Assembly: GCA_025617375.2 (NCBI GenBank)
Contig: JAMYGW020000003.1
Span: 2,728,001-2,792,000 of the forward strand
DNA length: 64,000 nucleotides
Direction of reading: 5' to 3'
Origin: Acarospora socialis
Lineage: Eukaryota; Ascomycota; Lecanoromycetes; Acarosporales; Acarosporaceae
The stretch's first letter is position 1, and every line of letters starts with the position of its first letter. Below the pieces are notes generated by a model. That model searched no databases. It was not told the origin of the DNA and saw only the letters and a program-made list of their open reading frames with translations. A program made the position numbers and the translations under genes. Shown in pieces: positions 1 to 64,000 of the stretch.

Positions 1-2894
1 AGAAGTCTGAAAGTCTTTTGCTAAAGTAGTCAGCAAATGTGATGAAAGATTTGATGTGATGTGTGTTAAATGTCATAATATCATGAATTATTCAACATCA
101 GATAATGATGAAACAACAATCATAAAATGTTATCTGAAGAGCAACAGTTATCAAAATGCAAGAAAATCATCAGAAAAACAGATTTCAATCTTTGCAGCAC
201 TGAATATTACTGTATGCTATGTTTTTCAATTATAATGTTTTAATATAACACTCACATCTGTGCAGACAGCTCAAAAAATCATTGTTAAATCACTTAACTT
301 TACTTCTGAAGTCTTTGATCAGCAGATTTTTCAGTTCATTATAGTACTTAATCTGTTCTTTTGTGCTGTTGAGCATCTAAAGTTTTGAAAGCTCATTTAA
401 ATATGTTGTGCTGAAATTAAGATTTCAGATTGAACAAAAGTTACATAACTTTTTAAACATCATGTTGTCAAAATTTAAAAAGAAATTCTTGCAGCACTTG
501 AGTCACAGACTAAAGTCTTTATTGTACTTGATGAATGAATCAGTTTTAATCATCTTGCATTTTTAAACATCACTGCATACTTCATTGATACTGAGTAAAA
601 ATACAAAGAGATTCTTTTAGTGTTCAGAGAATTAAAGAATCAATATAGTGATGAAAATTTAGCTGAATATGTTCTTAAGATGTTGAAGAAGTGAAATTTG
701 ACACATCAGTTGTTAGTGATTACAGCAGACAATGCTTTCAACAATTATACTTTAAGACATCATCTCATTCAACTTTTGAGTACAAAGAATATAATTTGAA
801 GTGATGAAACTGAAATCATGAATTGTATGATGCATGTTATTCAGTTTGTAGTTAATCAGCTATTTACATATTTGAAAGCTGATGTCAAAAATGATCACTT
901 TACAACTACATTTGATGACAGTGAGCTACAAAAGTTCACATTTGAAAAGAACTACTTCTTTAATATTATACTGAAAAAGATCAGTAAATCTTTTGTAATA
1001 CTTCATTATAATGTTTTATTTCAGTTCATCATTATGTTAACAACATATTGATGAAGATTTATATACTTTCTATTGCAATCATAACATCATTACAGTAACT
1101 TAAACTGTTCAAAGAATTGCAGAAGACAAATTCTTGAGATATGATTGAGAATGTGAAAACTCAGTGAAACTCATTCTATGATATACTGAACAAAACATAT
1201 AAATTATGAACTGAACTCTCTCAGTAAATAAAGTATCTGACTAGAACAATAAACAGAATAAAGTTTCTCAAATATAATACAAGAGAGTGACAGCATATCA
1301 AGTACATACTGCATTTTTTAAAACACTTCAAAAACTGAACAGAAATCATAAGTGTTATCAGTAAATTAATAATTCACAAGCTGTAATTCACATACAACAA
1401 TCTGTTTAATCATCTCAAAAATTAGAACAAAGTAATTGAGAAGTTTAAATTATTCTTCAATTCTGAGTTGCTGAATGCTATTGATGCATGTAAAAAAAAC
1501 TGACTCAATACTATGAAAAGACAGAAGTCAATCATGAATTGTTCTGTAATCTTAAAACAATATTGAATTTATGTAACAAGCTTGACATGTATAATGTAGA
1601 CATTCTTCAATCTTCAATTCAAACAATATATCAAGACTGACATGATTTGATACAGAAAGATGACTGAGAAAATTTATGTGTAATTTCTTAACTTAAGTTT
1701 TGAAAATACTACAGCATCAATTATCAGCATCTGAAAAATGAATTATTAGATTAAGTTTTGATCATATTTGATCTCAAAGAGAAGAAGACAATAACTATGA
1801 TGAGTTGCATGAAGAATATAAAAAAATATCAAGATACATCTGTGAAGAAAGAACTTGCAGATTATTTGCAAAAATCTTCAGTATTTGATGTGAATATTTC
1901 AATTCTCAAGTTCTGAAAGTTGATGAAGAAGTTAAAATTAGTAATGATTCAATTTGCAAAGAATATATTTGTGATTTCTGCAGTAGATGTTGATGTTGAA
2001 TGTTTATTCAACATGATTTAAGATGTCATCACATATTGTTGAAATCAATTAAATTCAGAAATCATCAAGAAAATCATACTGATCAAATATCATAACATGT
2101 TTACATTTATGACAGAATTAATAAAAGATCTTGAGAAGAGATCTACATTAACAATGATTGTCAACAATAATGAAGAAAAATCTTCAGCAGATAAACTAAA
2201 TTGAAAAGTAATCAAATTTTGTACAGAGCTTTTATCAAATCAACTCTTCACTGATGATAATTTTTATGATGACAGTGATCAAGAGAATAACAACAACTTC
2301 AGACTTTTCAACAGTGATTAAGATGAAAACATTGACTTTAAATTTTATGACAGTAATTAAAATCAAAATCTAAACACTGAAGTGATACATCTGAATGTTA
2401 TAAATATTACAAATTATGCAACATCAAGACACACAATCTTCAACAACAACTATAGTCATGAGTCAATAAACATCAGTTCAGAAGAAGAGCACAGAGCTTC
2501 TTCATTGAATATGTTATTTACAGCAATTAATGTCTCAATCATTAACTTCATCTTTAATGACTTTACTATTATCAGTTTCATTGTTCAAAATATCAGTTTC
2601 AACAACTCTGTTCAGAGCATCTTTACTGTCATTATATATACAATCTTAAATACAACATCATGTCAGTCAAGAAAAAGAAATCTTCTTTATAAATAAAGTA
2701 AACAACTGTCAAAAACATCACTCTCACATATAAAAGTACAGACACTGCACTTTAAGATCATCACTGCTTCAATATTAAGATTATATAAGACACTTGATCT
2801 TTCACATATTAGTCACATCAGTGATTTTTTAAAGTCAAAAGAAATACATTCATTTTCATCTGAAGATAATGTTGATGTTTATAGATGTAAGTAA
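1..2894 (+). mobile_element. hAT-family transposase fossil, open at the left edge
   Basis: Decayed transposase of a fungal hAT DNA transposon. The reading frame is open from the first bases, so the 5' end and left terminal repeat lie outside. Seen in order: a Cys-containing N-terminal stretch (CVKCHN near 70-85) that may be the BED finger remnant; an RNase H-like core near 510-780 (NHLAFLNITAYFID, then ADNAFNN, equivalent to the DNAxNN acidic motif); the H-V-I-x-L-V-V segment near 830; and a C-terminal hAT dimerisation domain near 1850-2080 (ELADYL, ISAVDVDVECLF, NQLNSEII). The frame changes by one near 1050-1110, which could be an indel or an intron. The second frame runs to a TAA at 2892-2894 through an acidic and Ser/Lys-rich tail. 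About two dozen in-frame stops. The family is clear; the exact clade is not. No terminal inverted repeat was found downstream. Confidence 0.85.
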
Positions 2895-3398
2895 TATTGA
2901 TCTTAGTAAACTCTTGTCTCACATTTTTTTAAAATATAGAGCAACATCACAAACAGAAAGTCTTGTTGTTGAGTACATCATAAAATTGTTGTGAATTTAA
3001 GACAGAATACATGCACAGTGTTTTTATAAATTTACAGTGATTTCATTCTTATATTTACTATCTTAATAATTTTATCTCTTTATCACAGTCTGATCACAAC
3101 TCTCATTGTTGCTACATTCTTTAGATTAGTTCATGACTTCATACTTTTCATGCTTGATAGACTAAGTCATATACATGCATGTAGATATACTCTCATATTC
3201 TGCAATTCTGAGAAGTTCATTGTTGTTGAGTTGTTTATAGTGAACAACAATTACATTTTGAATCAACAGTATTGTACATACAAAGAGAAAAAATACACTT
3301 ATGAAAGTGACTTTGAGTAGAGTATTAGACTTAAACTTACTTACACATCAACAACAATGATATTAAAGATCTTTGATCTTCACTCAGAACATTGTAGT
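2895..3398. other. No gene assigned
   Basis: AT-rich interval after the hAT frame. No frame stays open long enough to support a gene on either strand, and no terminal inverted repeat of the hAT element is visible. Confidence 0.4.
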
Positions 3399-4180
3399 TC
3401 AGTTTAGTTTTATATCTTCATTATTTTCATCATTATCATCATCATCATGATCTTTCTTCTTCTTCTTCTTCTCATCATCATTCTGTATATTTTCTTTCAT
3501 TTTTAAGATTTTTATTTTTTTATCAGCATCATCTGCAACAGACAGAATCTACTTTGTTGATGATTGAATTTTAAATTCTGTTTTAGTTTACAGATATATT
3601 GAATTAGCAAGAACTTTATAAATGATTGTAAAAGCATTATAATTGAGTAATATAAACATATTTGATCATTGTGTACATCAATCTTCTGACTCTTTGACTT
3701 TAAAGATGTAATCTGTGAAAAACATTATTTAGTGAGAGTTCTGATATTAAAACAGTACAGAATTGATATATCTTGTTTTTTTCTAAAACTGTCTTCTTGA
3801 TGTTTGCTAATGCAACTTTGCTGAGTTTAAGAAAAATGTGTTCATCATCAGTATTTTTATTTAACACAATTTACTCAGAAACAACTACTGTAACTATTTT
3901 CTCATTCTCACTCAACACTACTTTCACTTCTGCATTTTCATCTACAGATGCATTGAAAATCACTGATAGCTGATATTTAAAAATAAAACAGCATCAGTTG
4001 CTGTCTTAAGAAGCATTATAAATGAATATTAAAAATAGAATACATACTGATGAGCTTCATTATCTGTTATATGTTCTGAATTAAATACAATACTATTGAA
4101 AACTTGCATAACAAGATCTAAGTTCTCATCTTTCACAGCAGTAAGCTCTTCATAGTTGCAGAACTGAATGATTCACTCTT
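3399..4180 (-). pseudogene. Decayed gene of unknown function with Lys/Asp-rich tail
   Basis: Minus-strand reading frame with few stops. It contains a hydrophobic, beta-rich-looking part near 3990-3850 (YQLSVIFNASVDENAEVKVV). After a likely frameshift near 3720 it continues into a tail ending in alternating Lys and Asp runs (KKKKKKDHDDDDND) and a stop at 3399-3401. The tail corresponds to the (ATC)n/(TTC)n microsatellite near 3420-3475. I do not recognise a family. Its codon decay matches the rest of the window. The start is not fixed; the frame can be followed back to about 4180. Confidence 0.4.
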
Positions 4181-4486
4181 AATATTTAACTATTATATGT
4201 AAAGATTCTGTTCAGCAGTCTTGAATATTTTGATGAGCTTTTACAATCTAATCACATCAGCACAATTTAGAATTCAAACAAATAAGACATATTTCTTCAT
4301 CAAAAACTGCAGAAAAACTCTTTACTTCAAGAAGTTTATACAGAGTTTGAATTTCTTCAACTTGTATAATGAAGTTACTGTGCTTGACAGTATCATTTTT
4401 CTTTTTTTACTGAGTTATTGCATTCTGATTTATGAGAAAGATTGTTACATATTAAGTTAAAGACTATGTAAAACTAAAACAGTAAA

Positions 4487-5400
4487 TTAATACTCATCAT
4501 GTTCACTCTCTACATATCTTTGAATCATAATTTTCTCTTTAATTTTAACTGCATACTTCATCTTTTAAACAGCATCTTTGAGCTTTCTATAATCTGAATC
4601 ATGCTTGAGATTCTGATTCACTTTATTCAGTGCTTTGTTATTTTTATTGTGAGTCTCTTCAATTTTATCATCTCTGAAGACATTGACTACTGAGAATTGT
4701 GATAGTGTGACTCTCTGAGTTGTATTAAACAGTGAAGAACTTAATTTAAAAAGAGATGAAGAACTTTTTAATTCATGAATACAATTTAGTTTCTGATTTA
4801 ATACACTATTTGTGCATTATAATTGAGCATTATAATTATAGAAGTTACTTATAAGATTTCACAGTAAAAGAACTGCTGAGTACATCTGAAGTATTTTTGA
4901 AAAATACAGCATTGAATGTTGATTCAGAATAATTAATAGATACTTTCATTCTTTTTTATTAATCAGCAAAGTTTTCTTTCTTCAGATATGCAGCAATGTC
5001 TGAGATAAATATGTTGATTTTGTTGATCTGTTTCTTTTTTTTCTTTTTGTTAAGTTAAGATGATATGAATATATCAGTTTTGTTAATCTGTTTTTTCTTT
5101 TTCTTCTTGTTAGATTGAGATAATGAGTTTAGTGTATTGATAAAGTGAGTTCTTTTATAAATAGCTGTGTCTGATGTTGTGTTAAATGAGTTTGATACTT
5201 GTAATTTTGCTACATTTATAAAAATAATCTTAACATTCTTTCTGCACTGTTCTGATGATGTATTTTTAGAATAAAAGTCAGCATTTTATCTCTTCATAAT
5301 TAACTTCACTTATATGACAACTGATTGAGCTCTTTAAAACATATTTAAGTGATATCTGATGACTTTCTTCAATCTCTTGATCTGATAGTGTTATATTGTT
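4487..5400 (-). pseudogene. Decayed Lys-rich gene with a duplicated basic segment
   Basis: Minus-strand frame ending at a TAA (4487-4489) after the sequence YVESEHDEY. Upstream lie a charged helical stretch (near 4560-4660) and a Ser-rich stretch (near 4740). At about 5010-5120 there is a tandem duplication of a roughly 60-bp unit coding NKKKKKKQINK followed by DIFIS-like residues; the two copies differ slightly. Stops are mainly TGA and TAA. The function is not recognised. The basic duplication suggests a nuclear or nucleic-acid-binding protein, but that is only an inference from charge. The 5' end is unclear beyond about 5400. Confidence 0.4.
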
Positions 5401-5795
5401 GCATTATAAAAGAAATGCAAGTACATTGATGACTGTATGATAATTTAAAAAAAGAATTTATAAAAAACTGAAGATTCAGAAAGAAAAGATCAGAGATTTT
5501 GTGAAAGTAAAAAAGTAAACTTGATTAAGCACTCATAGTACAGTTTGTTTACATGAATGTTGTTGTTTGTTGTAAGTGAATCTGTAGATAACTTCAAAAC
5601 AAACTATGCAATTATTCAGAAATTTTATTTCATGATCATTCTATCTCAGACAATTACAAATATACTTGATTTTAAGACATATTACATACTGTTTGTAAAG
5701 TGTAGTAAAAGAAATCACATTAATATCAATTTCATTTTTTAATATAAACATTATAAAAGTAGAGAAACTGACATTTAAGTTATGTATTTAGCATC

Positions 5796-6540
5796 ATGAC
5801 ATCAAAACAAAAACTAAAGTCAAGAAAGAAAGTCAAACTGACAATAGAGATGACTGAAGAAATTAAGAAGAAATTTTCAATGAGAACTGTCTTTAAAAAA
5901 AAATGAAGATATATAATGCAGAAATGACATCATAATTAGAGAGCAAAGAAGCTGCAGTTAAATGTAGCATCTTTTAAGAAGATGACTGAATTCTTGATAA
6001 TTTTTCTTCATTTAAATTAATTGCTACAAAAAAAGAATTTAATGAGTTACATAGTTTCTACAATCATATTATATTATAATGCTCAATTTTAACATTCTCT
6101 GACAAGATTCTGCTATATAGCAGCAACAATATTAACAAGAGCTGTATTCTTTCAAGATCAATTAAACAGCATTCTCTCTTCTGATTGAAGAAATAATCAC
6201 TCAGTATAATTAGAATTTAAAGTGACATTAATCAGCAATCACAAGTCTGTAGAAGACAAGTGAAGTATTTCTTTGTACTTATTTTGAAAGTATAAATTCT
6301 CATATATCAAAATCTCTCTTCTATGACTTATATATTATATAGTTGTGAAGTTACATAAAAAAAAGAATCTGATTATGACAGCAGAGTTGTGAAAGACAAA
6401 GATGATGTTTGATACTTTTCAGCTCTACTAAGAAAATGAACTTCTTACTAGTTAATGTACTTTAGCTCTGTATTAAATATGTGATGTAATGAACAGCTTA
6501 TAATGTTCACATATAATGCTCACAAAGCATGCTGCAAACA
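5796..6540 (+). pseudogene. Decayed basic protein, function unknown
   Basis: Starts with an ATG at 5796 followed by a Lys-rich stretch (MTSKQKLKSRKKVKLTIEM). At least one frame change occurs within the first 200 bp. Later readable parts include KKMTEF and KKEFNELHSFYNH. No domain is recognised. I report it because one frame or its neighbour stays readable with similar composition over several hundred bases; the 3' limit is soft. Confidence 0.3.
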
Positions 6541-6639
6541 CATAGTCAAACAAAAAGTGCTTTGTGAAACTATCATCAAATAGTTTTGTGTTAGTAACAT
6601 TTATCAATTAAACTCTGCTTAGTTATCATGTGCTAATTA

Positions 6640-6795
6640 ATTTTAATTTAGTTTGAGCTGTCAAGAAAAACTTAATCTAACTCTGTCTGAAATCTGATTC
6701 TGTTCAGAACTGAGTTGAGTTGCAAAGTTAAGCTCAGTGAGTCAGATCTGATTTCAAAATCTGAGTCTGACTCAGCTCAGTGATCATTCTATTAA
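6640..6795. repeat. Possible diverged MITE fragment
   Basis: Contains TCAGAT/CTGAGT-rich sequence and a GAGCTGTCAAGA segment resembling the reverse complement of the left arm of the MITE at 22104. It ends in GTGATCATTCTA, similar to the MITE terminus. No matching left end or target duplication was found, so this may be only a fragment or a compositional look-alike. Confidence 0.3.
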
Positions 6796-7611
6796 AAATA
6801 AATATCAAGATCTTATTTCTAACACATAATACTGTTTCAAGCTTGCTATATATGATTCTCTAATTCTTTAAATAGTATCTGACTATGACATATTGAGCTG
6901 AGTTTTGAAAGAGATTTCAAGTGATTTTCAGACTGACAAAATTCTTTCTATTTTACTTTTGACTATTAACTGAAGACTGTATCTAAAGATGCACAGTGCT
7001 ATGTTTTCTTCAAAAACAATTTCTTAAAGTTCTCTTAATTTTCTTGCTGTCTTCTGATCAATATAATTGAAAGTTTAGCTTCTTTAAGTGAATTTGCTAA
7101 TTTAATATGTGTTTTACAACTTTGTGAATTTTATTCATCATCTTGTGATTTACACATACTTGTCAAAAAACTATTAGTCTTAACTTACACTGCAGAGAGA
7201 TCACACTTACAAGACATAACAGTTTGATCTCTTCAGTTCTTGATCTCTGATCTGATTAAGTTGTCTGTATTAAGATTTTCATAGATTACTTTGATGTGTC
7301 TGTGATCTTTCATGTAAACAATGCTTTTATGAGTTGTGTCTTTAAATATAAAGTTAGTTAGAACAAAAAGTTAAATATTAAGTATCTTATGATCTGCAGT
7401 CAGCTTTGTTTCTAGTATGTTATTAAAGCAAACTCACATAATTCTTATTTATCAAGAGAAGATCATTTATTCAATCTTGTATTAGATAAAATTCAGTATA
7501 AATATTCTTTTAAAGCATTTTAGAATGTGCTCTCATGAAATTAAATATCTACTTACACTTAAAACTTATTTCTCAGAAGAGTGTAATTCTTCTGATTTTA
7601 ATCTTATAATT

Positions 7612-7860
7612 TTAATATTCATCAAGTAACTGTTTAATGTAGAATAACTGATCAGCTATTTCAGCATCAGTAGCAAATAATAGAACTTTGTCATAAAATT
7701 TGAGATGTAATTTCTTTTCATACAGTTCTTTAATGAAAGTCTTCATTGCAGTAAACTGTTTAAGATCACTTGAGAAATGCAGATGAAGAACTCTGATGAA
7801 TTTTTCTAAAACTATATAATGAAAATTATAACATCATGATTATTCAGATTGCAATATTAT
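7612..7860 (-). pseudogene. Decayed gene fragment, function unknown
   Basis: About 80 codons on the minus strand with almost no stops, unusual for this window. The readable part includes EKLHLKFYDKVLLFATDAE-like sequence and ends with a TAA at 7612-7614 after LLDEY. The upstream continuation is weak. I do not recognise the family. The low stop density suggests either a younger copy or real coding ancestry. Confidence 0.35.
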
Positions 7861-7869
7861 CACAAGATT

Positions 7870-9968
7870 ATGAAGAGATAAAATTGAGCAAATGCAATGT
7901 AACTCACTCATAATATGCAGAGATAGATGAATTAATCAGCTTGAAACTTTCAAAATTACAAGACTTTAATATGAATCTGAATAACATCTGACATGTATAT
8001 AATCATGACTTGACTGAGTGATTTGTCAAGTTTGATGTTTCAGTAAAAAAAATACTCAACTTAAAGAATGTATGTGAATGCTCAGAGACAAGTTGTCACA
8101 AGTAAATATAAAATTGAAGAGATGAGACATTTTTCTGAGAAACTGTATATTTATATTGCTGTAATGATCATTGCAGTTAGCATTAAGTGCAATCAGAAAA
8201 ACATCTCATAGAACTATCAACAAATAATAAGAGAAGCAAATATTAAAATGATAGTTATTGCACAGACTGTTTCAGAGTAAAAGTCAGTTTAAGCTTGTGC
8301 AAAATAAATGAAAATCATATCATTAGTGCTGTTATCTGAGATGAGATATGTAGATCAAGTTTTTGTGAAGTAACAGTTATGATTAAATGCACAAGATCTT
8401 TCATTATAATTACTCATTTTAATTATCAATGCATTCATTGATAGTTCTCAGATCTGATGTTATATAGATTGATAATGATGTTTATGTGTTCATTTAAAGT
8501 CAACAGTATAAGATTAATGATTGACATTTAATTCATTTTCTTACTCAGAGTTATTGCATTCTTCACATCTATAATGACACAAACAATGTTACTAGTCAGT
8601 AACACAACAATTAATGTTGCATCAAAGCAAGTCATCTTGCTGAATTCTCTGAAATATCTCTGAATCTATGAGTAAAACACATATTTGAGAAAATAAAAGA
8701 TTGCATATGTATGAACAACTTTAATCAATGATCACATCAGAAAAAATACAATGAAGAAAGCTGTTAGAACTTTAAGAGCAACTGTATATCATTGAGTAGT
8801 ATTCATTGTTTTGAACTTTTGATTTGCAAAGAGTTATAAGTACTTTAAGAGATTTTAATCATATACTTTATATAGATACACTTGAAACATCAGTGACAAT
8901 ATTAAAAATATTAAATTTAAAGCAAAGTTCTGAGCAAAGTAGAAGTCTAAATGAGCATCTTCTTGCTTGAAAGATATAAAATTAGTATTTCTGATAAACA
9001 ACACATAAAATCTTCTATCATAAGAAATTGTACAATAATTAACAAAGAAAAAAAAAAACAAACTGCTCAGAAGCTAAAAAGAAGAAGAGAGGTGTTCTGT
9101 AAGAGTCATTAACTTAAAAAGTTATGTGATTTAAATGTAACTGTGATAGTTCATGATCTGAATGAAAAACAATATTATGTGTATTGATTCACAAATCAAG
9201 AGTCATGATCATCAGTGCTCAAAGAAATTGTTAGTTTGTTCTGTTCTCTTCACTTATATGATTAAAATACTTAATTTACAGCAGTGACTTGTGATCTTTA
9301 GACTCATATTTATTCTTTTTAGTAATATTGAGAAGTCAGACAATTATACAGACAATAGAAATGAAAGAAACAAAAGAAAAAACATACACTTCATCATAAA
9401 TAAAGATATAATCAGACAGCATGAATCAACAATATCTGCAAGACAGAGTTTTTAGTTATCAAAGTCATCAATATTTAACTTCTGTTCTAGTGATGAGATT
9501 GATTAATGATGATTATACAGTTTTAACTTTGTGAAGAAGAGAGAAGATGCTTAAATATATTTACAATAATAATAAGAATAGTGAAACATCAATGATTAAT
9601 GTTCAGTCATATGTCTTTTATTTACTTCAGAATTTCTATGTCATAGATTATTGTTGTGTTGTTGACATAAAAAATTATTTGAGCAATGTACAGTTCATAT
9701 AATACTTTTTAATGTGTTTATACACAACTGATACTATCTTTATGTGTTAGTGAAATCTATTTTAATTGAACTTTCACTGTAAATGCTTGTTTAAACTCTT
9801 AACTTCTTGAAATGATGTCTGCAGCTTTGTGAAGTAGAATTTAATTATAAAATGATGAAGTGATTTTGAAGTTCACAGATCTAAAATTAACTAATCTCTT
9901 AATATAAATTCTATCTGAATCTTCTAGTGCTTTTTTTAACTTTGAAATGACTGAGTTATTACTTAACA
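7870..9968. other. Decayed AT-rich interval without an assignable gene
   Basis: Several short frames on both strands look partly coding, for example a plus-strand stretch near 8100-8290 reading SKYKIEEMRHFSEKLYIYIA, but none can be followed far enough to name. No LTR, terminal inverted repeat or tandem repeat was seen. Confidence 0.3.
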
Positions 9969-11552
9969 ATGAAGTGTTGTGATCACAGTCAATAATTAAC
10001 TTTATTCAGTCAGAACATTAAAACTGTCTTATATGAATCAAATAGACTTCAAATTCTTATTGATCAAATTCTCAATTCAGACAGTCAACACTTCAGTCTG
10101 TCTGATCTCATTGAAAGTACAGTAAAATTTGTTGTACTTTACAAACTAGTTCTCTTCACAAAGACTACAAAGATTAAAAATCAAAAACATCATAATGATG
10201 TTCATTTTTATCTAAAAATCTCTATAATCTTTCATGATAAATCAGTGCTTTATATGAAGAGTGATTTGTTATTTCATGACTCAAGAAACAAGATCTTCTC
10301 AGCTGAGAAATGTCACAAAATCATCAAGCAAATTCTTTTCAAACTTTAAGAAAACATCTCAGAAGTTCATCAGAACACAATTGTGAATAATTTATATTTT
10401 TATCTTTTATATTTTTTTGCAAATGTGATCTGCATTTTTGCTGCTGACTTTGCTGATTTCAGATTTATTATTCATCACTTGAGTTTCTGACTCAAGAAAG
10501 ATCTGCTGTTAACTTTATTAAAATTGACACATTCATGATTGATAATTATGACAGAGATAACAATGCTGAGAGAAACAGTCAAGAAAGAAATTAAAAAGCT
10601 TTTTTTGTCAATGCTTAAAGATAAGACAATGCAAGATATCTTTACATTGTTCTTTACAGTTAAAGTGCTTTGTATATTGTCAGATGATTAAGTCTTAATG
10701 AAAGCTTGATTCAGATTATTGAGAAAATGTTTTATGAATATGTCAATTTAAGTACAGCTGAATAAGATAAACACAAGAACACTTTTCTCAGCAAAACACT
10801 TTGCTGTGTTTTTTAAGTTGACTTGTGATTATTTTGCTATAACATGCAACAAGTCATTTGATTTTATAAGAATTTCTCAATGTCAAAATCTGATATCACT
10901 GAACTTGAACAATCATTTGTTCAATTTTCTCTTGAATATTCAGTTCTTACACAAGCTTACAGAGTTTGCAGTTTCTATGATGACTTTCAGCTTTTTGCTT
11001 GATAACTATTTTTTAAATATGTATAACAAATTGATATTCATTCTGATCAAAACATAAAGATTAATATTGCAGCAGTTTTCAGCTTAACTGAGATATTCAA
11101 GACTTTTTATATAGAAATCTACTATAAGATGAGCAGAATCTCATTGCTAGTTCATAAAGATTTTATTGAACTGATTTTACTGTCTGATTTTCTCAGAATA
11201 ATCAAATGTCAATTAATGATGTACTTTAAAAAATTCATTCAAAATGACAACTTCATATCTGTGAAACTTCATTGTAAAATTTTTAAAAAAGATTCAATCA
11301 CATTGAAGAAGAATATGCAGTGATGATATGTGTCTTGTCTATTTGAGAAGATAGTCTCAATATAACTTATAATGTGAATATTTGATCTGTAAAACTTGTG
11401 TTTAAATTTTTGATGACTGCTACAATACTGACTCATGAATATTCAAGATCAATTTGTGCTTTTTATGTGAGTTGAAGTTCTCTGAGATTTCTGTGAAGAT
11501 AAAGTTTGATACTGTGAAAGTGAGAATCTTGCTTATAAATGAAGATAAAATG
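9969..11552 (+). pseudogene. Patatin-like phospholipase fossil, N-terminal part, cut by an LTR
   Basis: One frame from the ATG at 9969 runs about 528 codons to the insertion point at 11552, with about two dozen stops. It resembles the large fungal patatin-like phospholipases that carry a long N-terminal region, a Cys-rich RING-like linker and then the catalytic domain. Seen: hydrophobic YFFANVICIFAADF-type segment (near 10400), AKHFAVFF (near 10790), LLDNYFLNMY (near 11000), then Cys pairs CLVY, ICKTCV and CFLCEL (11330-11480). It closes with VKIKFDTVKVRILLIN, which matches the residues just before the family's GGGxRG oxyanion motif. The 5' LTR of element D begins a few codons later, so the catalytic patatin domain itself is not seen. 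The family identification rests on this ordered set of motifs; a database comparison would settle it. Confidence 0.6.
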
Positions 11553-11929
11553 TATTATGATCAAGTCAAAACAGACTTGAGACAAACTAATGCATACATA
11601 CAAGAGATGTATATTCAAAGAATATTTAAACAGCAGTTATGTGACATCTTAATATGCTTGATGATGAGCTTGATGAACAAACTTAATGAGTTACATAAAC
11701 AAGTCATCTTAATGAACTTAACAGCAAGATCAACAAGTGAATTCAGTATATAGTAGAGTCAATTTTCTTATGAAATCAATCATGTTCAACTTACTCAGTT
11801 AATTACAATAAAGTGTTTACTCAACATCACTGTATTGAAGAACTCTTATATTTACAAGATTAAACATCTTAGTTCTAACATATTTGAGAAATTTCAGATT
11901 GAATATCACACTTTAGTTAGAATATAACA
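11553..11929 (+). repeat. 5' LTR of element D (377 bp)
   Basis: Starts TATTATGATCAAG, aligned with TGTTATGATCAAG of element B's LTR, and ends ATAACA. Shares a TATA-like TATATAG followed about 35 bases later by TGTTCAA with the other LTRs of this family. It is followed by CTTTGAACAC, the leader common to A, B and D. Confidence 0.8.
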
Positions 11930-13720
11930 CTTTGAACACACTTACAGTATAAAAATGATCACTTTTACAGCACAGAAGTCAGCTTCAATAAGTTAAATTT
12001 ATTTTTAAAATCTTTCACAAATGATTAATACATCAAGATTTCATCATCTGATGTGTTTATCAACAAGAGAAAAAAGCTGCAAGCATTCTTGATCAAGCTT
12101 AAATTATATATTGAATTCAATCAAAACAAGTTTAAGTTCAAGATGAACAAGAATTTATTCACTGTGTCATATATGAAGAATGCAGTCTTCAATTGAGTTA
12201 ACTTTAAGCTGCATAAATTTCTCAAAATGACAACAGTAAAACAATAAACAGATAGAAAATTCATTTTTTCTGACTACAAGAGATTTAAGAAAGAGCTTAA
12301 AGAAGTTTTTAAAATAATTAATGAAAAGTAAACAGTAAAAAGATGACTGCAAGTAATCTGTATGAAGAAATCAGCAGTTAAGTATGTGATGAAGTTTCAG
12401 AGAATTGTAATTTTAATAAATTGAAATGACAATTTTCTCACATTACACTATTACTAAAGACTTTACAAGTCTATTAAGAATAAAATAGCTCAAATGAATT
12501 GACTCAAAACTCTACAAAAAATGATTAATGTATTCATCAGTATAAACAATCAACAATAAAAACAATGAATGAAATGTACAGAACAACAAGTATCATCTAG
12601 AATGAGATGAGAAAGAAAGTTTGCTCAAATATGTTGAAGAAACAATTCAATGAATCTTGATATGATTGAGAAGTGTCATCAAAAGTTATAAAAAACTAAA
12701 TAAGTGATGTCTGAACATCAGAAAAAACAATTCTATGAGTTTTAAACAATGCAGAATAAAACACAAACATGTTATAATTGTTAGAAATTTAAACACATAG
12801 CAAAGAACTGCAAAAACTTTCAGACTGAGAGAAAAGAAACAGCAGTGACAGTTAAAAAGAATATATGCATAATGCATGATGCTCTCAGCTAAACAGTCTG
12901 TTACAATGATATATGCTGAACACATATAAACAGTAAAAATGAAGTCAGATAATATCTGAAGAGACTGTACAAAGATATTTAAGATGAATATGATATAACA
13001 GATCAATTAATTTATGAAAAAGAATTAATTACTCTTACAAAAAAATATATCAAGAAAGATGATCTTGATGCTAAGAATAAAAACAGTATTTTTGATGATG
13101 ACATTGAAGAAATCAATGATTATGAATTACAAATTAATGAATCATGAATATTCTCAAACAGTGACACACTCACAGAAGAAAGTTTGAACAATACTGAGAC
13201 AAAATTCTTAAAGAAATATTAAATTAAAATTGATAAACATCTATATAATTAAAAAAGAACAGCATAACACAGCAAAACAATGCTGACAGAGAAGCTTGAG
13301 AAGTTACAAGCTCAAGAACAAGAAGTAAATATGTACTTTGAATTAAATAAATTAATGAAAGAAATATAACTGATAACTAAAGAAAAATCAGACAAGACAG
13401 TATTAAAACAACTTATATAACAGATAAAAAGTCATAAAATCAAAATACTCTTATCAACAAAATATGATCTGAAGAATGAAGATCAATGAATTTTCAATGA
13501 AGAATATATACTTTCTGAATATCTGCAAAAAGTTAAAGTCTTTGAGAGTTAATTGCAGACAAAATATAATCAGTATAAATTTAGATTACACTCTCAACAA
13601 CACATTGAATAGTACAAAGAAGAATACATGAACTTACTCTTAAAGAAGAAATCTGAGTGATTTACAAGTTTATGAAGAAGAATCAAGAGTGTAGTAACAA
13701 TAAAAAATTATGAGCTTTCT

Positions 13721-13906
13721 TGTTAGAATCAATTTATATGATTGATTTCTAAGTCTATGATAATGTGTTGATTGTTAAGAAAACTATCTAGAAAGTGATG
13801 TTTTACATAGATGCAGCTCTTTAAAAACTAGTATTAAGTACTTTCACAGAGTCTCATCTTATTGCAAAGTCTTAATCTCACTGAGCTCTATAACAAATTC
13901 ATAACA
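13721..13906 (-). repeat. LTR of element E, left copy (186 bp)
   Basis: TGTTAGAATC...CATAACA. Same length as, and closely similar to, the right copy at 16506. TG...CA ends and the adjacent TTTCT duplication define the boundary. Confidence 0.85.
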
Positions 13907-14061
13907 ACTATTCACAAAAAACAGAAAAGACAACATTCTCATTGTGTATGCTAGTTATACTAGTATGAGACAAGACAACAACAAGATTTTCTGCTAGTAT
14001 TCTGCATCAAAATGTCTCTTGTAGCTCTATTCATTATAGTTTTTTCATCAATCTTTTTTCT

Positions 14062-17833: not shown

Positions 17834-18539
17834 AGACATGTATTTTACTGAGAATATTTCTCAGTTTCTGACTCAGAAAGATGATGTAGCTTCTAATTAG
17901 AGTTCAATCTTTTTTTGCAATTCTGTGAGTGTGATCTCTTCTCATGAGTTAAATTATATAAGTTTTGTCAATAACAGTGTGTAGTTCTCAAGACAGTGTT
18001 CTATATAGTAATTTAAACATGCAGTATTTTCTGAGAATACAATATTGAAAGTGATAGATCAACACACATAATAAAAGATCAGTCAATCTTTAAACTTGAA
18101 ATTCAATTCAATCTTTGAACAAGTCATTTCATCAACTTTTGTCTTGAGTACTTCTTGATTTGAAAGTTACATCTTGCAAAACTTCAATAACTGTTTCTGA
18201 TCAGCAAAAACAAAACTGATAACTTAATCTTAATGTATCATAAAGAGTAGATGACTGTTCAACATCACTCTACAGTATATTAATACATGATAAGTATTGA
18301 ACATAGTAAATTTACAACTCTTTCTCTTTCATGTCAATCATTTTCATACATGTAAACAGTATTTCTGTAAGAGAAATTTCTAAGAACAGATTGCTTTGAC
18401 TTGTTTAAGATGATACTCAATGTAATTCTTTACAAAAGACATCTTGAGATTCTGAACTTCATATTTAAATCATAAGAACTTTACAGTTGATGTCTTTGAA
18501 AGTTAAAAAGCAGTTTATGTGAATTGAGTCTTTCATAAA
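17834..18539 (+). pseudogene. Left part of a decayed gene split by element C
   Basis: One plus-strand frame of about 235 codons with roughly 20 stops, entered at the TRIM-like element and left at the 5' LTR of element C. The readable part is hydrophobic and Cys/Phe-rich in its first half. The frame appears to resume after C and the MITE at about 30566 and continues to about 30905. No family recognised. It could be a remnant of the patatin gene left of element D, but I saw no patatin motif to support that. Confidence 0.4.
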
Positions 18540-53860: not shown

Positions 53861-54244
53861 TATTCTTGCTGAATTGCTGAAAGCTCAAATTGTTGAATAA
53901 TCTACACTATGATTTTTTAAGAAAACTTTTTTTAAATTAAACTTACAGTGTATCTACACAGAACTGAATTTTTTAGATGTACACTTATTTACACAATCAT
54001 TCTCAGTAAAACATCAGAAAAGAATGTTTTTGCAATTTTATAATCATATTTAGAAATATTATGCTGTTCTTGTGTTTCTTTAATGATTAGATAATATATT
54101 TTTTTAAGTTTCTTTATAATATAGTCATTGAATCTCTGCTGAATGAGACTCTCTAATTAAGTGATCATATTAGTTTTGAAAGTTTTGTAAAATAAAAATA
54201 AAAAATAAATCTTGTAGACTATTGACATCAAAATCACAGTTTAA

Positions 54245-54560
54245 TGTTACAACCATACCCTAAAGAGAAACAGCAGGATCAGAAGTACACCTGAAGGTGT
54301 AGTTTCAAGCATGAAATGATGAAATAATGAGCATTCTCTCATGAACATATGCTCAAGAGACACATCAGAATGCTGAAACAACAGACATGTTAGTGTGTCT
54401 ATTTCTATATAGTAGGGTCAATTTTCTTATGAAATTGATCATGTTCAACTCATCTAGTTATGCAATACAAAGCTACTGTTTACCTAGAATCTTTGAATCT
54501 TTATATCAAAGAGCACAAACTCTAGCTCTATAATCAAGAAATCTCAGTTGAAACATAACA
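54245..54560 (+). repeat. 5' LTR of element A (316 bp)
   Basis: TGTTACAACC...AAACATAACA. Same length as the 3' LTR. By hand comparison about 11 percent of positions differ, all of them transitions. Confidence 0.93.
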
Positions 54561-54570
54561 CTTTGAACAC
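54406..54570 (+). promoter_or_regulatory. TATA box, inferred transcript start and primer-site region of element A
   Basis: TATATAG at 54406-54412 is followed 36 bases later by TGTTCAA (54442-54448). The leader just after the LTR, CTTTGAACAC (54561-54570), is complementary to TGTTCAA. The same spacing and complementarity hold in B and D, which supports a shared function. Interpreted as promoter plus self-primer of the Tf1/sushi kind; inference. Confidence 0.45.
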
Positions 54571-57500
54571 CCTTACAATATAAAGAATGTCATTCAAAGA
54601 ATCAATCTCAGATGATGTGTCACAGAGCATTGAATCAACAAAGATAATCAACATCAATTACAAAGTACCTAAAGTAAAGACTTCAGAGAACTTCACAGAA
54701 AATTGATGCAATCTGAGACAATTTCTTGCTCAAATCAACCTGTATGTCAACTTCAATCAGAAGAAGTTTGAAAGCAATATCAACAGAGTCTTATTCACAA
54801 CATTCTACATGAAGAACACAGCATTCAATTGAATTAAATCACAGCTCAACAAGTTCATGATCAAGAGTATTTCTGATCAAGAGCAAGACACATCTTGCAT
54901 AGAGAACTGAATGCAGTTCAAGAAAGAGCTGAGAAGAATCTTTGAAGTGGTTGATGAGAAACATGCAACAAAACAAAGAATTCACATGTTACAACAAGAA
55001 GAATTCACAGTCAAGTATGTGGCAGAGTTTCAACAGATTGCAGCACTCACACAATGAAATCTGAATCAGTTAGCATCAGCTTACTATTGAGGCTTGAAAG
55101 AATCTATCAAGAACAAGATTGCACAAAGTGACAGGTCAGATGACCTGCAAGAGCTTATTAACAAGACAATCATGATAGATGACTGTCAGTGAGAGTGACA
55201 GATGAAAAAAAGAGACTACTGACATCAAGGGTGAATGAGTCAAGTCAATAGAAAAAATCAAAGACAACATTACCTGAACCCCATGAATCTCAACATGATG
55301 AAATGAGATCAATCTTCAGTATGAAGATCAGAAGAAACATCACAAGAAAGAAAATGATTCTCAAGAGAAAAGTCTCTGAGCAACTGAAAAACACAGAAAT
55401 GCTACAATTGTGATATTATCAAACATCTTGCACAAGATTGCAAGAGACTCAAGAGGAAAAGAAAGGAAGCTGCAATCACAACTAAGAAAGTAGTGCATGA
55501 CAATCTTAGCTGAACAGCTTGCTATAATGACATGTGTTGAACTCACATGAGCAGCAAGAATGAAGCTGAATATTACTCAAAGAAGTCACACTTAAGACAA
55601 AAAGCTTACAATATCACAGAATGGTCTAGATCAGGTGACACTGTAAGAAAAGAACTATGTGTTCTAGAGACTGAGATTGAAGAGACTGATACTTGTAAAA
55701 CTCAGATAGAAGAAGACTACAGTGATAGCATCTGAATTGTCTTGAATTTGAATGCAGATCAAGAGAAAGTCAATCAGTGAAAAGTCAACATGAGACTGAA
55801 GACAGCATACCAGCACTCTGAGAATCAGCAACAAGCATTGAAAGAAGAAAAGCTTCAGTTCAAGAAACAAGAACTTGAACAAGAGATGCAAGTTTGAAAA
55901 TGAAAAGCACAACACAAAAGTTCAGAAGAACAAAAGACATGTAATCAGCTAAAAGAGTTGATGACAGCTGTTAAAGATGAATGTTTCAGCAGTGATGATG
56001 TGACATTGTCTAAATCTCTTGTGTGAAAAATGAAGAGTCACAAGATTGAGATACATTTATTCAAAGAATGTATCACACAGAATGAAGATCAATGAATCTT
56101 CAGCAGAGAATATATATCATCTGAATTTCTGCAAAGAATAAGAGTCTTTGAGAGTCAGTTGCAGATGAAATACAATCAATACAAATCTCAACTACACTCA
56201 GAACAACACATCAAGCAGCATAGCTTAGAGCATGTGAATCTTATGGTCAAAAGGGAACCAAGATGGTTTCAGGAACTTTGAAGACAAGTTAAATGATTAA
56301 GTAAGTCAAAAAACAAAGAGCTTTCTTGATGAGACTAGAGAATAAGAAGCTAGTGGTGTCTCAAAAACAAGACAATGATCATCAAATATGAATCAAGATA
56401 GTGATTGATGAACATCAGATCAATGCATTGATGGATTTTGAAGCAGACAGTAACATTATAAATCAAAAAACAGTCAACATGTTGAGATTAGAGACACAGC
56501 AAGCACACTGTCCATTCAATATAAGAATGGCAAATGAAGTCATTGAAAGGATTGATGAGAAAGTCTGTGTGGAAGTCTCAATTCTTGAAAATTCACAAGA
56601 GATAATCTTCAATGTTATGAAATCAATCAGATATAATGTGATACTAGAGATGCCCTGGTTATGCAGAAAGAATTCATAAATTGATTGAGTTACAAAAGAA
56701 ATATGTGCAGTCAAGAACACATACAAGGTCTCAGAACAATCAGAAATGAGCTTACTGAAGCATAAGTCATGAGATCATGAAATACTGCTATTGGACAGAA
56801 AGCAATCTAAGTGAATGTTGTTATACTCAATGAGCAAAGATCAACTCAAGAAAGTAAGAACTTACCTTGATGAGAATTTAAAGAGAGAATTCATTAAATC
56901 ATTCAAGTCACCAGCAGAATATCTGATCCTGTTTGTATCAAAGAAGAATGACAGAAAGTGACTATGTGTTGACTACAGACAACTCAACAAGATAACTCAT
57001 CAAGATAGTTATTCTCTACTGTTGATAGAAGAGTTGCAAGATCAATTAGATAAGACTAAGTAGTTCATGAGCTTAGATCTGAAAGATGCCTATTATCAAG
57101 TTAGAATGAAAGAAGAAAAAGAATGAAAAATGGCATTCTGAACATGATATGAACATTATGAATACACTGTTATGTCATTCAGACTAAAGAACATCTCAGT
57201 CATCTTTCAGAGATTAATCAATGACATATTGAGAGAATATCTCAATGATTTTGTAATCACATACCTTAACAATATTCTGATATACTCAGAAGACCTTGAA
57301 GAGCACTGCAAACACATGCAAAAGATATTGGCAAAACTCAATGAGAGAGCTCTGTACATGAAAAAGTCAAAAAGCAGGTTTGAGATCAAGAAAGTCAAGT
57401 TTCTAGACTATGTGATTCAACCTGAACAGATTGAGAAGAATTCAAAGAAGATGAAAGCAGTCAGAAACTGATCAACACCAAAAAGAATCAAGGAAGTACA

Positions 57501-59439
57501 GGTCTTTCTAGAATTGACAAACTACTATTAAAAGTTTGTATCAAACTACACAAGAATTGCAAAACCACTGATGTGTTTGACACACAAAAGCAAAAAATAG
57601 CATTGAAATAAAGAACAGAAGAATGCATTTCACATATTAAAGAAAAGTCTTAGTGGAACAGCACATCTGAGAATACTCAACTCAATATGCAAGAAAACAC
57701 TGAAAACTGATGCTTCAGATTTCACAGTAGAAGCATGTTTATATCAGATCAAGAAAGGACAGCAAAGATCTGTAGCATACTGATCTAGAAAACTAACAGA
57801 ACTTGAGAAAAGGTACAAGGTTCATGACAAGAAACTTCTTACAATAGTGAAGACACTACAAGATTGAAGATCTTACCTTGCAGAAACAAGCAAGTCAATT
57901 CAGATCTACACAGATCATAGAAACTTGAGAAACTTCACAATGACAAAGCAACTCAACTGATGACAAGTTCATTGGGCAGAGCAGTTAGCAGACTACAAAT
58001 TTCAAATTCATTACAAGAAAAGTAATGAGAACAGTGAAGCAGATGCCTTGAGCAGGTGATCTGATCATGAAGATGTACAAATGATGCACACTGAAATTCT
58101 GAGCAAAGACAACAACAAAATTCTTACAAAGAGCTTGACAACAACATACAAGATAGAGCAGAATTTCTTGACAGACAAAGAACTCATAAGAATGTGTCAC
58201 TACAGCAGAGCTGAAGAATATTCAGAAGTTAAACACATCAAAGACTTAGTGTGAAGAAGACACAATATCAGCAATCTTAGAAATTGAATCATCAGAATGA
58301 TTGCTGTGTGCAATTCATGCTGAAGAAACAAGATCAACCAAGATAGATGATATGATGAAGTAACACAACTGAATGCATCAGGTGCACTGTGAAAGTCAAT
58401 TATCATGAACTTCATTATGAAGCTATCATCATCAAAAGACTCAGCATGAAGAGTAAGATTCAACAGTATATTGATCATAGTGAACAGATTGACCAAGTAT
58501 ACAATGTTCATTTCATTCAAAGAAACTGCAACAACACCAGTATTGATGTACATGATACTGAGAGAGTTGATTAGCAATCATGAACTATCAAAAGAATTTA
58601 TCACTGACAGAGACAAGCTGTTTACAAGCAAGTTTTGGGAAACACTTACAGCAAAACTTGAAATAAAACACAAGATGTCAACAGCATATCACTCACAGAC
58701 AGATAAGCAAAGCAAATGAATGAACCAAACAGTAGAAACATACTTAAGACACTATGTCAACAAAAACCAGAATGACTGAGTATGGCTGTTGTCAACAGCA
58801 CAGTTTGCATACAACAACACAAAAAACAAAACCACAAGAGAAACACCTTTCTATGCAAACTATGACTACAACTCAGAAGTATGATGAGATCTCAGAGAAC
58901 ACAGATCATGAAGTCAGAAAGTAATTTTAGACATCACACAGATGAAAAAACTGCACCAAGATCTGACAAAATGAATTGAACAGCAGACAGAACAAGCAAC
59001 AAGAACAAAACCATTCAGAGAAGAAAAAAAAGTATATTTAAGAACAGATAATATACAAACAAAGAAAAGAAGCAAGAAGCTGAAAAACAAGAGCATTGAA
59101 CTGTTCAAGATCATATGAAACATCAAAGAATTAAGCTACAAGCTAGACTTACTCAGAGAGATGAGAATACATTCAGTATTTCATGTGTTCATGTTACAGC
59201 ATTGCAATCAGTTCATATCACTTCAGACCAATGAAACACCTGTTGAACTCAACAAAGAATATGAAGTTGAGAACATTCTAGAGAAGAAAATGATTAATGA
59301 AAAAGCTTACTATCTCATGAAATGAAAAGAATACAATACATCAGAGAACACCTGAAAACTCAAGGAAAATCTCAAGAACTGCATGAGAATGCTTCAATGC
59401 TTTGAGAAAGAAAGTCAAGATTAGCTCAGAAGAACAGAG

Positions 59440-59905
59440 ACATTGAGTCAACAAGTTGTGACAATGATTGAGAATTTTCATTCTCTGTTTCATCATTATC
59501 ATCTGCAAGCTCTTCAGCAAGACATTTCACTTTTGCATTGATCTGAGTTTCAGACTGTTTTAAGGTTTTCTGCAATCTAGCAATTTTTGTCAAAAGTGTG
59601 AAGAGTTGCTCATCAAGAGCTTGAGAAAGTTCATTTTCAGTTTTAAAATGAACAGACTCAAGAAAGTCAAGAGAGAGACTGACACAGAGATGACCTCAAT
59701 GCACACACTCAGCACACTTTGCAGACTTAGAGAAGTTGAACAATGCTGAAGAATCAAAGAACATTATAATACAAGAAAGACTGATGTCTAGACAGCAATT
59801 GCACAGAACAAGTGCAGGATTTTCTTTACAGAATATGGTATCAGTGAGATGAAGTCAATTTTTGAATTTCAAATGCATTGTCAGAATGTGATGAGCAAAT
59901 GCTGA
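59440..59905 (-). pseudogene. Antisense Cys-rich coiled-coil gene of element A
   Basis: Minus-strand coding fossil between the chromodomain and the 3' LTR, readable along most of its length. N-terminal part with Cys pairs and the motif SAKCAECV, then a helical stretch (ENELSQALDEQLFTLLTKIA) and an acidic tail. A TATATA lies just upstream on the minus strand near 59910. Homologous genes occupy the same place in B and C. Related proteins are, to my knowledge, annotated as hypothetical in many fungi. Fossil; function unknown. Confidence 0.65.
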
Positions 59906-59962
59906 TATATACTCTTGCTTAAATAGGTTCTAAAGAACTAGCATCTGAGAGAAAAGAGATGA

Positions 59963-60278
59963 TGTTACAATCATACTCTAAAGAGAAACAGCAGGATCAG
60001 GGATATGTCTGAGGGTGTAGTTTCAAGCATGAAATGATGAAATGATGAGCATTCTCTCATGAACATATGCTCAGAGAACACACCAGAATGCTGAAATGAT
60101 GAGTGTGTCAGTGTGTCTATTTCTATATAGTAGAGTTGATTCTCTTATGAAATCAATCATGTTCAACTCATCTAGTTATGCAATACAAAGCTACTGTTTA
60201 CCTAAAATCTTTGAACCTTTATATCAAAGAGCACAAACCCTAGCCCTATAACCAAGAAATCTCAGTTGAAACATAACA
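59963..60278 (+). repeat. 3' LTR of element A (316 bp)
   Basis: TGTTACAATC...AAACATAACA followed directly by the TTTAA duplication. Preceded by a purine-rich tract expected for plus-strand priming. Confidence 0.93.
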
Positions 60279-60283
60279 TTTAA

Positions 60284-60943
60284 CATACTTATGTTAGTGA
60301 TTCATTCTGTTCACAAATGACAACAGATAGTGATTAGATGTTTATACTTACAGTGAAACATCATATATGAGTAGTTCTTCATTTTTACAACTGTAAAAAA
60401 CTCAAATGATTCTTTTCATACAAATTATTTGCAAACAAATTCTTTTGCACAAGATAATACTCATTTAGCAGAACTTTGTAAAGTAACTGTAAACTCTTAA
60501 AATCAACAATCAGTCTTAGTTAAGCACTTTCTTGTTAACTTTATCAATTCACTGAAACTTAAACTCATATTCACATCAAAGTTCAAGATATGCTTCTTAA
60601 ACATTGTCTGACTCAATGCTGATGTAGTTTTTGCAGTTGTTCTCAAATTTATATTCAAGATCTACTAAAAGAATCAGAAAATCATTCTTTCTGCATATAT
60701 TCTTAAAATATTAAACTTTAAATTAATCATTTTCTTCTAGAACTTCTTTCTTCAGATTTTTAAACAAGTATCTCTAATTAAACAAATATACAAGTATATT
60801 TAAAGTAGCTGACTTGTGTCTTTTGTAAACAGTTTTTCATAACACAACAATTTTCTTTAACTTCTACATTTTATTGTTGAAATCTGCTGTCAGCTTTGAA
60901 GTCTCTGTGTTGATGTAAAGAAAATTATAAATAAGAATGAGTT
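60284..60943 (+). pseudogene. Decayed coding stretch, function unknown
   Basis: A plus-strand frame between element A and the TRIM-like copy 2 can be read for about 150 codons with few stops (HTNYLQTNSFAQDNTHLAEL, then VKHFLVNFINSLKLKLIF). Another frame also reads partly well, so the call is weak. Interrupted on the right by the TRIM-like element. Confidence 0.3.
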
Positions 60944-62988: not shown

Positions 62989-63329
62989 AATGTTTAATTT
63001 GTCTGATTTGTTTCTAAAATTTGAAAACTATTATTTTATAAGTTTTATTGTCTTAATCTACCTAGCTGCAGCTGAAACAGTTGAGTGATTGAGAAACAGC
63101 TAAATATAACTGCTGTTTGAGCTTCAATCTGAGAAATAGTTGCTATTAAATTAAGATTCATTATACTCTTTATTTATCTTTTATAACATCTTCATCATAC
63201 AATTCACACTTTCAATCATCACAGAACACTGACTATAGTCTGTAAAATAGAATGTTCATGATTACTGAAAGAAATTGTAAAGCATTTATAAGATAGACAT
63301 CATGTGCAAAATTTCTTTCTACTTTGTTT

Positions 63330-63685
63330 ACTCTCAGTGAAGATGATTCAACATCAAATGACAACAATAAGAGAGATATTCTTTCTGAAACATTGCATTC
63401 AATTATTAAGTAAGATTATATCAAGCAGAAAATAATTAAACTGAAAAGATAAAAAGATCTACAGAGTATTGAGTGACTTTTGAAAGAGAATGTTGCATTA
63501 AGACAGCAAATACTATTTTATGAAAGAGTTTAATACAGATTCATGAACATACTACATGAAATTTACAATGACATGATTTTAATTCAGTGAGCTCTTAAAG
63601 TAAATAAGAAAAAACAAGAAGCAGTAAAACAAGATTGATTAACATACTGAAAACTCTCTGATAATAAGTTTTGAGATATTATGTT
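63330..63685 (+). pseudogene. Small coiled-coil family, copy 4, cut by an LTR
   Basis: Plus-strand frame (EDDSTSNDNNKRDILSETLH, then LLKENVALRQQILFYERV, LHEIYNDMILIQ, VNKKKQEAVKQD) with about seven stops. The tail after QD matches the copy at 36447 (AAKTD), with stops at the same expected Trp positions. The frame is interrupted at about 63682 by LTR-like sequence, which supplies its final bases. Confidence 0.55.
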
Positions 63686-64000
63686 TTAAAGTAGTTAAAG
63701 ATTGATATTATGATAAAGAAATTTGACTTATTGATATAAAGATTGCAATGCACATAATAGTACTCTTAGCTGATATCTTGAAGTTTATGATCATTTTTGT
63801 AAGACAATGATTCTGTCTATATACTATAAGATTGTCTTGCTTTTCATACTCACTATAGAGTATATAGAGCTGTAGATCTACTATAAAACTATTGTTTCAC
63901 TGTGCTTGTCATTGAGTTTATTGAGTTCATAGAGCTTATTGTTTTTATATATATCTATTATGTTGACTTCTTAACAGATCTCTCATCAGTTCTAGATTAG
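63682..64000 (-). repeat. LTR of the gypsy A-D family, running off the right edge
   Basis: TGTTTTAAAG... with the blocks TTGACTTATTGATATAAAGATTGC and CTATATACTATAAG (each read as the reverse complement of the family LTR) in the same order as the solo LTR at 35401. The right end is outside the window, so it may be a solo LTR or the 3' end of a whole minus-strand element. Confidence 0.5.

Follow-up and report, generated by a model that had tools for sequence, protein, structure and literature searches.

In a window of 64,000 bases of the Acarospora socialis genome (the whole stretch of DNA analysed here, G000:C3:2728001-2792000, from an assembly of 31.1 Mb in 38 contigs) CpG is absent and CC and GG are nearly so. 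The best reading of the window and of its relatives elsewhere in the genome is a process similar to repeat-induced point mutation (RIP), acting on cytosines followed by C or G (CpS). We give this reading, which is drawn from sequence comparison, a probability of about two in three. It is carried by the type of the substitutions, the base next to the changed cytosine, the involvement of both strands, the fit of the loss to one duplicated block and the fact that CpG has not reappeared in old copies. An earlier note, made from the letters of the window alone, had proposed a process on C before G or C, unlike Neurospora-type RIP; we found this context in copies of a long interspersed nuclear element (LINE), in the duplicated block and, less cleanly, in the long terminal repeat (LTR) elements of the window.

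Dinucleotide composition of the window

Over the 64,000 bases counted, CpG occurs 0 times, where the numbers of C and G predict about 1,275. CC (90; observed/expected ratio, o/e, 0.07) and GG (85; o/e 0.06) are strongly depleted, and 152 of these 175 dinucleotides (82 CC and 70 GG) lie within 22301-30200 and 54201-60300, which together make up 22% of the window. Conversely, CA (5,058; o/e 1.51) and TG (4,676; o/e 1.50) are in excess, with a joint o/e of 1.50, as are CT (3,623; o/e 1.23) and AG (4,544; o/e 1.28), with a joint o/e of 1.25. GA and TC are also in excess, and TA is low (5,296; o/e 0.65). The counts thus bear out the earlier note, which had described a window without CpG, with CC/GG almost restricted to younger insertions and with CA and CT still common. 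CAG and CTG stand at 1.20 and 1.21 of their first-order expectation and are not depleted; therefore, the pattern is not a CHG effect.

The RIP indices, which the earlier note had suggested computing, are 0.72 for TA/AT and 1.53 for (CA+TG)/(AC+GT). Both lie on the non-RIP side of the thresholds quoted in the accessible text of PMC3828140 (≥0.89 and ≤1.03, respectively), and the standard indices would overlook the region. RIP is usually recognised by CpA loss and TpA gain, and those indices would class a genome such as this one as RIP-negative.

Substitution spectrum of the LINE copies

A reverse transcriptase search of the genome, in which the best 150 of 435 candidates were scored, gave at least 151 matches, and 20 copies, all belonging to one LINE family, were taken for alignment. 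Five copies have no stops and a mutual identity of 99.4-99.8%; the other 15 are 94.6-98.6% identical to those five. The columns at which the five young copies agree (1,143 of 1,153) served as the reference. Against it, 259 C>T or G>A changes were counted in the 15 copies, on both strands, together with 78 changes in the reverse direction and 15 transversions.

After the exclusion of 27 events beside ambiguous columns, the C>T changes by next base were 177 events at 54 sites for CC, 10 at 4 for CG, 25 at 201 for CA and 20 at 140 for CT. Per site and copy, this corresponds to 0.2185 for CpC, 0.17 for CpG, 0.0083 for CpA and 0.010 for CpT. Sites changed at least once were 47/54 for CC, 16/201 for CA and 15/140 for CT; without the CC sites changed in eight or more copies, which are possible subfamily marks, 124 CC hits remain. 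Within isolated CC/GG, the 5' C was changed 135 times and the 3' C four times (CC>TC 39 vs CC>CT 2; GG>GA 96 vs GG>AG 2). The stops in the copies arose from TGG>TGA (21), CGA>TGA (2), CAA>TAA (3) and TGG>TAG (1), with two other TAA. RIP of the CpA type would turn TGG into TAG, so this predominance of TGA agrees with the CpS context.

Of the 58 CpS sites, between 5 and 36 are changed, depending on the copy. The most mutated copy, L041, has 36/58 CpS sites changed (62%), 6/341 cytosines changed before A or T, and 0 transversions in 1.15 kb. The uneven load and this transversion-free copy read as bursts, not as slow decay. No clear strand blocks were found within the 15 copies (lowest p 0.043). 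Among the matches listed, many stop-free reverse transcriptase matches are clustered, at G000:C1:2.65-2.80 Mb, C14:11-85 kb and C10:187-265 kb, and decayed ones are scattered. Tc1/mariner-type elements gave 19 matches and no spectrum; the four loci examined have a GC content of 0.47-0.49 and a CpG o/e of 0.69-0.85.

The same spectrum bears on a LINE with an open coding sequence on G000:C8 (L055:675-4661), with 1,329 codons and endonuclease, reverse transcriptase and RNase H domains. It contains 6 CpG where its own third-base composition predicts 114; the avoidable CC/GG number 74, with 149 expected, and the 125 CC/GG forced by Pro, Gly and Trp are retained. Arg is encoded by CGN in 4 of 48 cases, and no NCG codon is used for Pro, Ala, Ser or Thr. 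Coherently, the new mutations in the 15 copies fall on such codons (Gly>Glu 35, Gly>Asp 18, Pro>Ser 20, Trp>stop 22). The coding sequence of a transposon has apparently been reshaped by a host mutator.

A duplicated block in gene-rich DNA

Block X (L010, 4507-6928) is a 2.4-kb segment of gene-rich DNA that is CpG-poor and CC-normal. A DNA search with it returned a copy Y on C14 (92-93% identity) and a partial copy Z at C3:2.27 Mb (88%). From Y to X, 63 of 99 CpG were lost (34 to TG, 29 to CA and 0 to TA), and the changes at the other cytosines were 42/275 for CC, 14/366 for CA and 2/326 for CT. From Y to Z, the cytosines changed were 39/78 in CC, 20/49 in CG, 4/105 in CA and 4/91 in CT. The CpG o/e is 0.35 in X (flanks 0.87 and 0.80; CC in X 0.92), 0.22 in Z (flanks 1.08 and 0.71) and 0.71 in Y (flanks 0.96 and 0.67). 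The loss largely tracks the duplicated part, and in X it is faster at CpG than at CpC. No TpCpG bias was seen in the comparison of the blocks.

According to the earlier note, transposons and gene-family members were affected alike. For transposons this holds, in the LINE and LTR copies. For gene families in the window it gained no support: a Pfam scan of 6 of the 12 longest open frames found none above the cut-off, with one weak Clusterin match below it. The duplicated block, which lies elsewhere, supports that part of the claim in part; no Pfam family was found in the open frames in and around copy Y. P450 genes, taken as a gene-family test, showed no decay signal, most of the 107 matches being without an internal stop.

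Distribution along the genome

The genome was sampled in 20 stretches of 10 kb, chosen non-randomly: 17 on C3 (both window flanks and the DIM-2 locus among them), one on C1 and two at other methyltransferase loci. Gene-rich bins have a GC content of about 0.5, a CpG o/e near 0.9, mostly within 0.8-1.1, and a CC/GG o/e of about 0.8-1.1; a few lower bins, mixed or duplicated, fall at 0.41-0.72. AT-rich bins have a GC content of 0.26-0.31 and a CpG o/e of 0.00. The same composition is found in the window flanks and in the other isochores, and the borders between isochores and gene-rich DNA are sharp (1-3 bins of 400 bases). Pooling the 1-kb bins with GC <0.36 (119, of which 63 in the window; border bins included) gave 19 CpG and 282 CC/GG, and outside the window none of the 50 sampled 1-kb bins with GC <0.32 contained CpG. 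Counting only stretches that were selected neither for the window nor for methyltransferases, 36/150 sampled 1-kb bins, about a quarter, are AT-rich and nearly free of CpG and CC. Thus, two findings that the earlier note had named as fatal to its proposal, an equal depletion in host genes and a loss of CA as in classical RIP, were not what the counts gave. Near one isochore edge, a segment (L020:8001-9200) is rich in CC/GG, with 67-80 per 400 bases.

Relatives within the window and features

Comparing the youngest insertion of the window (Table 1) with its relatives in the window, the sites that read T were 144/238 for CC, 754/2,367 for CA and 655/1,919 for CT, in rows that include its own two LTRs against each other. 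CA/TG doublet mismatches exceeded column shuffles in 7/7 pairs (e.g., 130 vs 20.3), which is what independent loss of CpG would produce if one copy went from CG to TG and the other from CG to CA. Where the young copy has T, the older window copies have C at 839/5,130 sites before A or T, at 11/1,536 before C and at 0/1,518 before G. If the region is near equilibrium, the removal of CpG would outpace its formation from CpA or TpG by a factor of at least about 3,000; this is a Poisson bound from 0 CpG beside 9,734 CA and TG.

Tandem repeats also lie in the window: an 81-base unit repeated five times at 49848-50255, within a Lys- and Glu-rich open frame of 225 codons, and arrays of ATC and of a 9-base unit, ATTCTTGTT, at 43351-43614.

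Table 1. Features of the 64,000-base window, in window coordinates
Feature	Position	Strand	Description
AT-rich isochore stretch	1-64000		No CpG (dinucleotide counts)
Old part	1-14000		CC 0, GG 1, CG 0, GC 27% (dinucleotide counts)
LTR-like copy	18538-18860	+	Partner at 29821-30149 (85.8% identity; 44 transitions, 2 transversions)
Intermediate insertion	22301-30200		Relative of the 54-60 kb element, with 75% identity over 4.9 kb; CC/GG o/e 0.13
Longest stretch without CC, GG or CG	30194-40273		10,078 bases between CC at 30194 and GG at 40272
Youngest insertion, decayed LTR retroelement	54244-60291	+	CpG 0; CC/GG o/e 0.29
Left LTR of the 54244-60291 element	54244-54575	+	88.5% identity to the right LTR; 37 transitions, 1 transversion, 6 CA/TG doublets
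Reverse transcriptase domain remnant (Pfam RVT_1)	56962-57411 (G000:C3:2784962-2785411)	+	3 TGA and 1 TAG in frame
Right LTR of the 54244-60291 element	59962-60291	+	

Candidate enzymes and proposed mechanism

A search for methyltransferase homologues, also suggested by the earlier note, found RID, DIM-2 and DNMT5 homologues. The DIM-2 homologue (L001) has 9bap and 9baq, which we take to be N. crassa DIM-2 structures, as its best PDB matches, and its relatives are named Dim-2. The RID-like gene (L002) lies in two exon-like frames, with PCQ in 10/10 and ENT in 9/10 aligned sequences and GNAV in the second frame; we assign it to RID on this PCQ/ENT/GNAV pattern and on the traits of the RID/Masc1 family. 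The DNMT5 homologue (L003/L023) has an SNF2 domain and matches PDB entry 7r76, listed as Rad8 and presumably the Cryptococcus DNMT5. The genome also has one match to Pre-SET, which we assume to stand for the domain of DIM-5. The best-scoring named relative is from Pleopsidium flavum (62% for DIM-2, 51% for RID), unnamed proteins being closer; further named DIM-2 relatives are mostly from lichen-forming fungi, with some from other ascomycetes. Pleopsidium belongs to the Acarosporales, and these relatives make a lichen fungus similar to that order likely.

The mutator may well be the RID-type methyltransferase, which we regard as an even chance, and DIM-2 would perhaps also act in heterochromatin. 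A target set by the 3' neighbour would be easier to reconcile with a cytosine methyltransferase than with a deaminase, and the CpT bias that the accessible text of PMC4352252 links to a RID motif is a precedent for a dinucleotide preference determined by RID.

In the proposed mechanism, duplicated DNA would be recognised, possibly before meiosis, and its cytosines turned into thymine on both strands, mainly at CpS, with CpG fastest, CpC next and CpA and CpT little affected. Transposons passing repeatedly through the process would lose CpG first and CC/GG afterwards. In old DNA, any new CpG or CC would be erased again, keeping the isochores at or near zero, and a slow further loss of other cytosines could bring them to 26-28% GC. 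A broader picture combines a RID-family enzyme whose target has switched at the +1 base from A/T to G/C, an ascomycete RIP with CpC as main target, the quarter of sampled bins that is AT-rich, invisibility to standard indices, and a transposon forced to keep CC/GG mainly for Pro, Gly and Trp; taken as a whole, we offer it tentatively, as somewhat less probable than an even chance.

The sufficiency of the CpS rule was evaluated in silico. C>T before C or G, run to exhaustion on gene-rich DNA, gave CG 0, CC 0, CA/TG 1.72, GA/TC 1.62, TA 0.40 and a GC content of 0.352; the old part of the window has CA/TG 1.46, GA/TC 1.33, TA 0.68 and GC 0.270. A simulated CpG-only rule leaves CC at 1.07, and simulated CpA rules yield a TA of 1.7-1.9.

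Several results weigh against the RIP-like reading. The simulated CpS rule is right in direction but insufficient, and has to be supplemented by a slower decay of the cytosines left over or by AT-biased mutation. The five young LINE copies retain CC/GG although they are multi-copy. Copy Y retains most of its CpG, and in Neurospora RIP mutates both copies. In block X, CpA is changed at 3.8%, above CpT at 0.6%. Another CpG-poor segment, L013 401-2800, was predicted to be duplicated and has only short partial relatives of 82-262 bases, in a comparison without a control region. Within the window, the old CpG-free 5-kb stretch at 31000-36000 has relatives for about 240 bases only (best 40 of 259 candidates scored), and the continuing erasure there may not need repeats. 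Four ribosomal DNA (rDNA) spacer fragments examined (G000:C20:66012, C10:99144, C20:32251 and C6:337246) are diverged and GC-rich, without CpS decay. They come from a search for a clean ancestor by primer pattern and DNA queries, which found only such spacer fragments besides the rDNA units. Tc1/mariner-type elements gave 19 matches and no spectrum; the four loci examined have a GC content of 0.47-0.49 and a CpG o/e of 0.69-0.85.

Alternative explanations

A first alternative is that heterochromatic 5-methylcytosine, set by DIM-2 and/or DNMT5 at CpG and CpC, decays by spontaneous deamination, without any RIP-like mutagenesis. Homologues of both enzymes are present, the 3' base sets the target as with cytosine methyltransferases, CpG has not come back even where old DNA has few recognisable relatives, and PMC4352252, in its accessible text, attributes CpG signatures to methylation and deamination. 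However, the changes in L041 would be faster than expected of spontaneous deamination, and the CpG loss largely tracks the duplicated block within gene-rich DNA; these two points favour the RIP-like process. Moreover, methylation-driven decay is expected to concern CpG only, and CpC is a main target here. We consider this explanation unlikely but still a serious rival of the RIP-like process; the earlier note had put forward both.

It is still less probable that two processes are superimposed, with CpG removed by methylation and deamination of the DNMT5 type and CpC by a CpC-specific RIP-like mutator. The two losses are indeed separable, as seen in the CpG and CC ratios of block X and in the open LINE, which lacks most CpG and retains CC/GG where the protein needs it. 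Nevertheless, both classes are changed in the same copies and in the same block, a single enzyme preferring CpG over CpC predicts the same order, and the open LINE has also lost half of its avoidable CC/GG.

Editing of single-stranded or cDNA intermediates by an APOBEC-type cytidine deaminase would account for C>T in a CC context, but APOBEC3G targets the 3' C of CC and here it is the 5' C that changes, both strands are affected, and so is a block without retroelement domains, which leaves this explanation a negligible chance. Equally negligible is ordinary RIP of the CpA type, or a plain AT-rich composition misjudged: AT-rich isochores filled with transposons do resemble RIP, but CA/TG is in excess, TA is low, the indices fall on the non-RIP side, and composition alone cannot yield 0 CpG.

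Comparison with known systems

The RIP-like process proposed here resembles RIP of Neurospora crassa and other Pezizomycotina in changing C:G to T:A on both strands, in striking transposons and duplicated DNA, in the sharp borders with gene space and in the presence of a RID-type gene. It differs in that the preferred targets are CpG and CpC, with very few changes at CpA and CpT, and in that the stops are mostly TGA instead of the TAA and TAG of classical RIP, a contrast stated in PMC3828140. The order of targets is CpA>CpT>CpG>CpC in N. crassa, and in T. reesei CpA is close to CpG, with CpT above CpC (PMC5496416). Repeats of Stagonospora are depleted of CpC too, but CpA is dominant (PMC2621366). 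CpA, CpT and CpG signatures were described across 10 genomes (PMC4352252), and in a 2025 survey of 1,239 fungi the RIP-like defences share a CpA preference (PMC12543289).

In the accessible portions of the open-access literature, subscription papers being outside the scope, CpC was nowhere found described as a main target of RIP in ascomycetes, and the main texts on Tolypocladium and Ophiocordyceps held nothing on the CpC dinucleotide. The paper on the DIM-2 structure leaves the reading of the target unexplained, as far as its accessible text goes (PMC11315935); if the +1 base has naturally switched from A/T to G/C, this case could help to find which part of RID or DIM-2 recognises the target.

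Among other ascomycetes, the lichen fungus Cladonia rangiformis likewise has RIP with sharp isochores and RID and DIM-2 homologues, but its ripped DNA peaks at about 16% GC (PMC12542154), against 26-31% here; the higher value is as expected if CA and CT survive. Verticillium dahliae has RID, DIM-2 and DNMT5 and a single-context C>T in transposons, but there CHG is lost and CG is not (PMC8091789), while here CAG and CTG are undepleted.

The CpG-biased RIP-like processes of basidiomycetes (Rhizoctonia solani AG8, and Microbotryum with TpCpG) and the CpG signatures of Tuber and Coccidioides are also similar, in that CpG is removed from transposons (PMC4014442, PMC4352252); the TpCpG bias of Microbotryum is absent from the block comparison made here. 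In R. solani AG8, heterozygous changes occur every 214 bp for CpC, 370 for CpG, 422 for CpA and 491 for CpT, and in repeats every 301 bp for CpC and 583 for CpG (PMC4014442, Table 2). TGA is also its commonest stop, and in the accessible text the authors emphasise CpG only. Thus, a joint excess of CpC and CpG is already in print for Rhizoctonia, unremarked in that text, and R. solani AG8 is a possible second case of CpS targeting. It differs in that the changes are seen between nuclei and affect both genes and repeats, and in that CpA and CpT are only about 2-fold rarer than CpC, with distances unscaled by dinucleotide abundance. In A. socialis, the contrast exceeds 20-fold per site and, in the sampled stretches, is confined to isochores and repeats.

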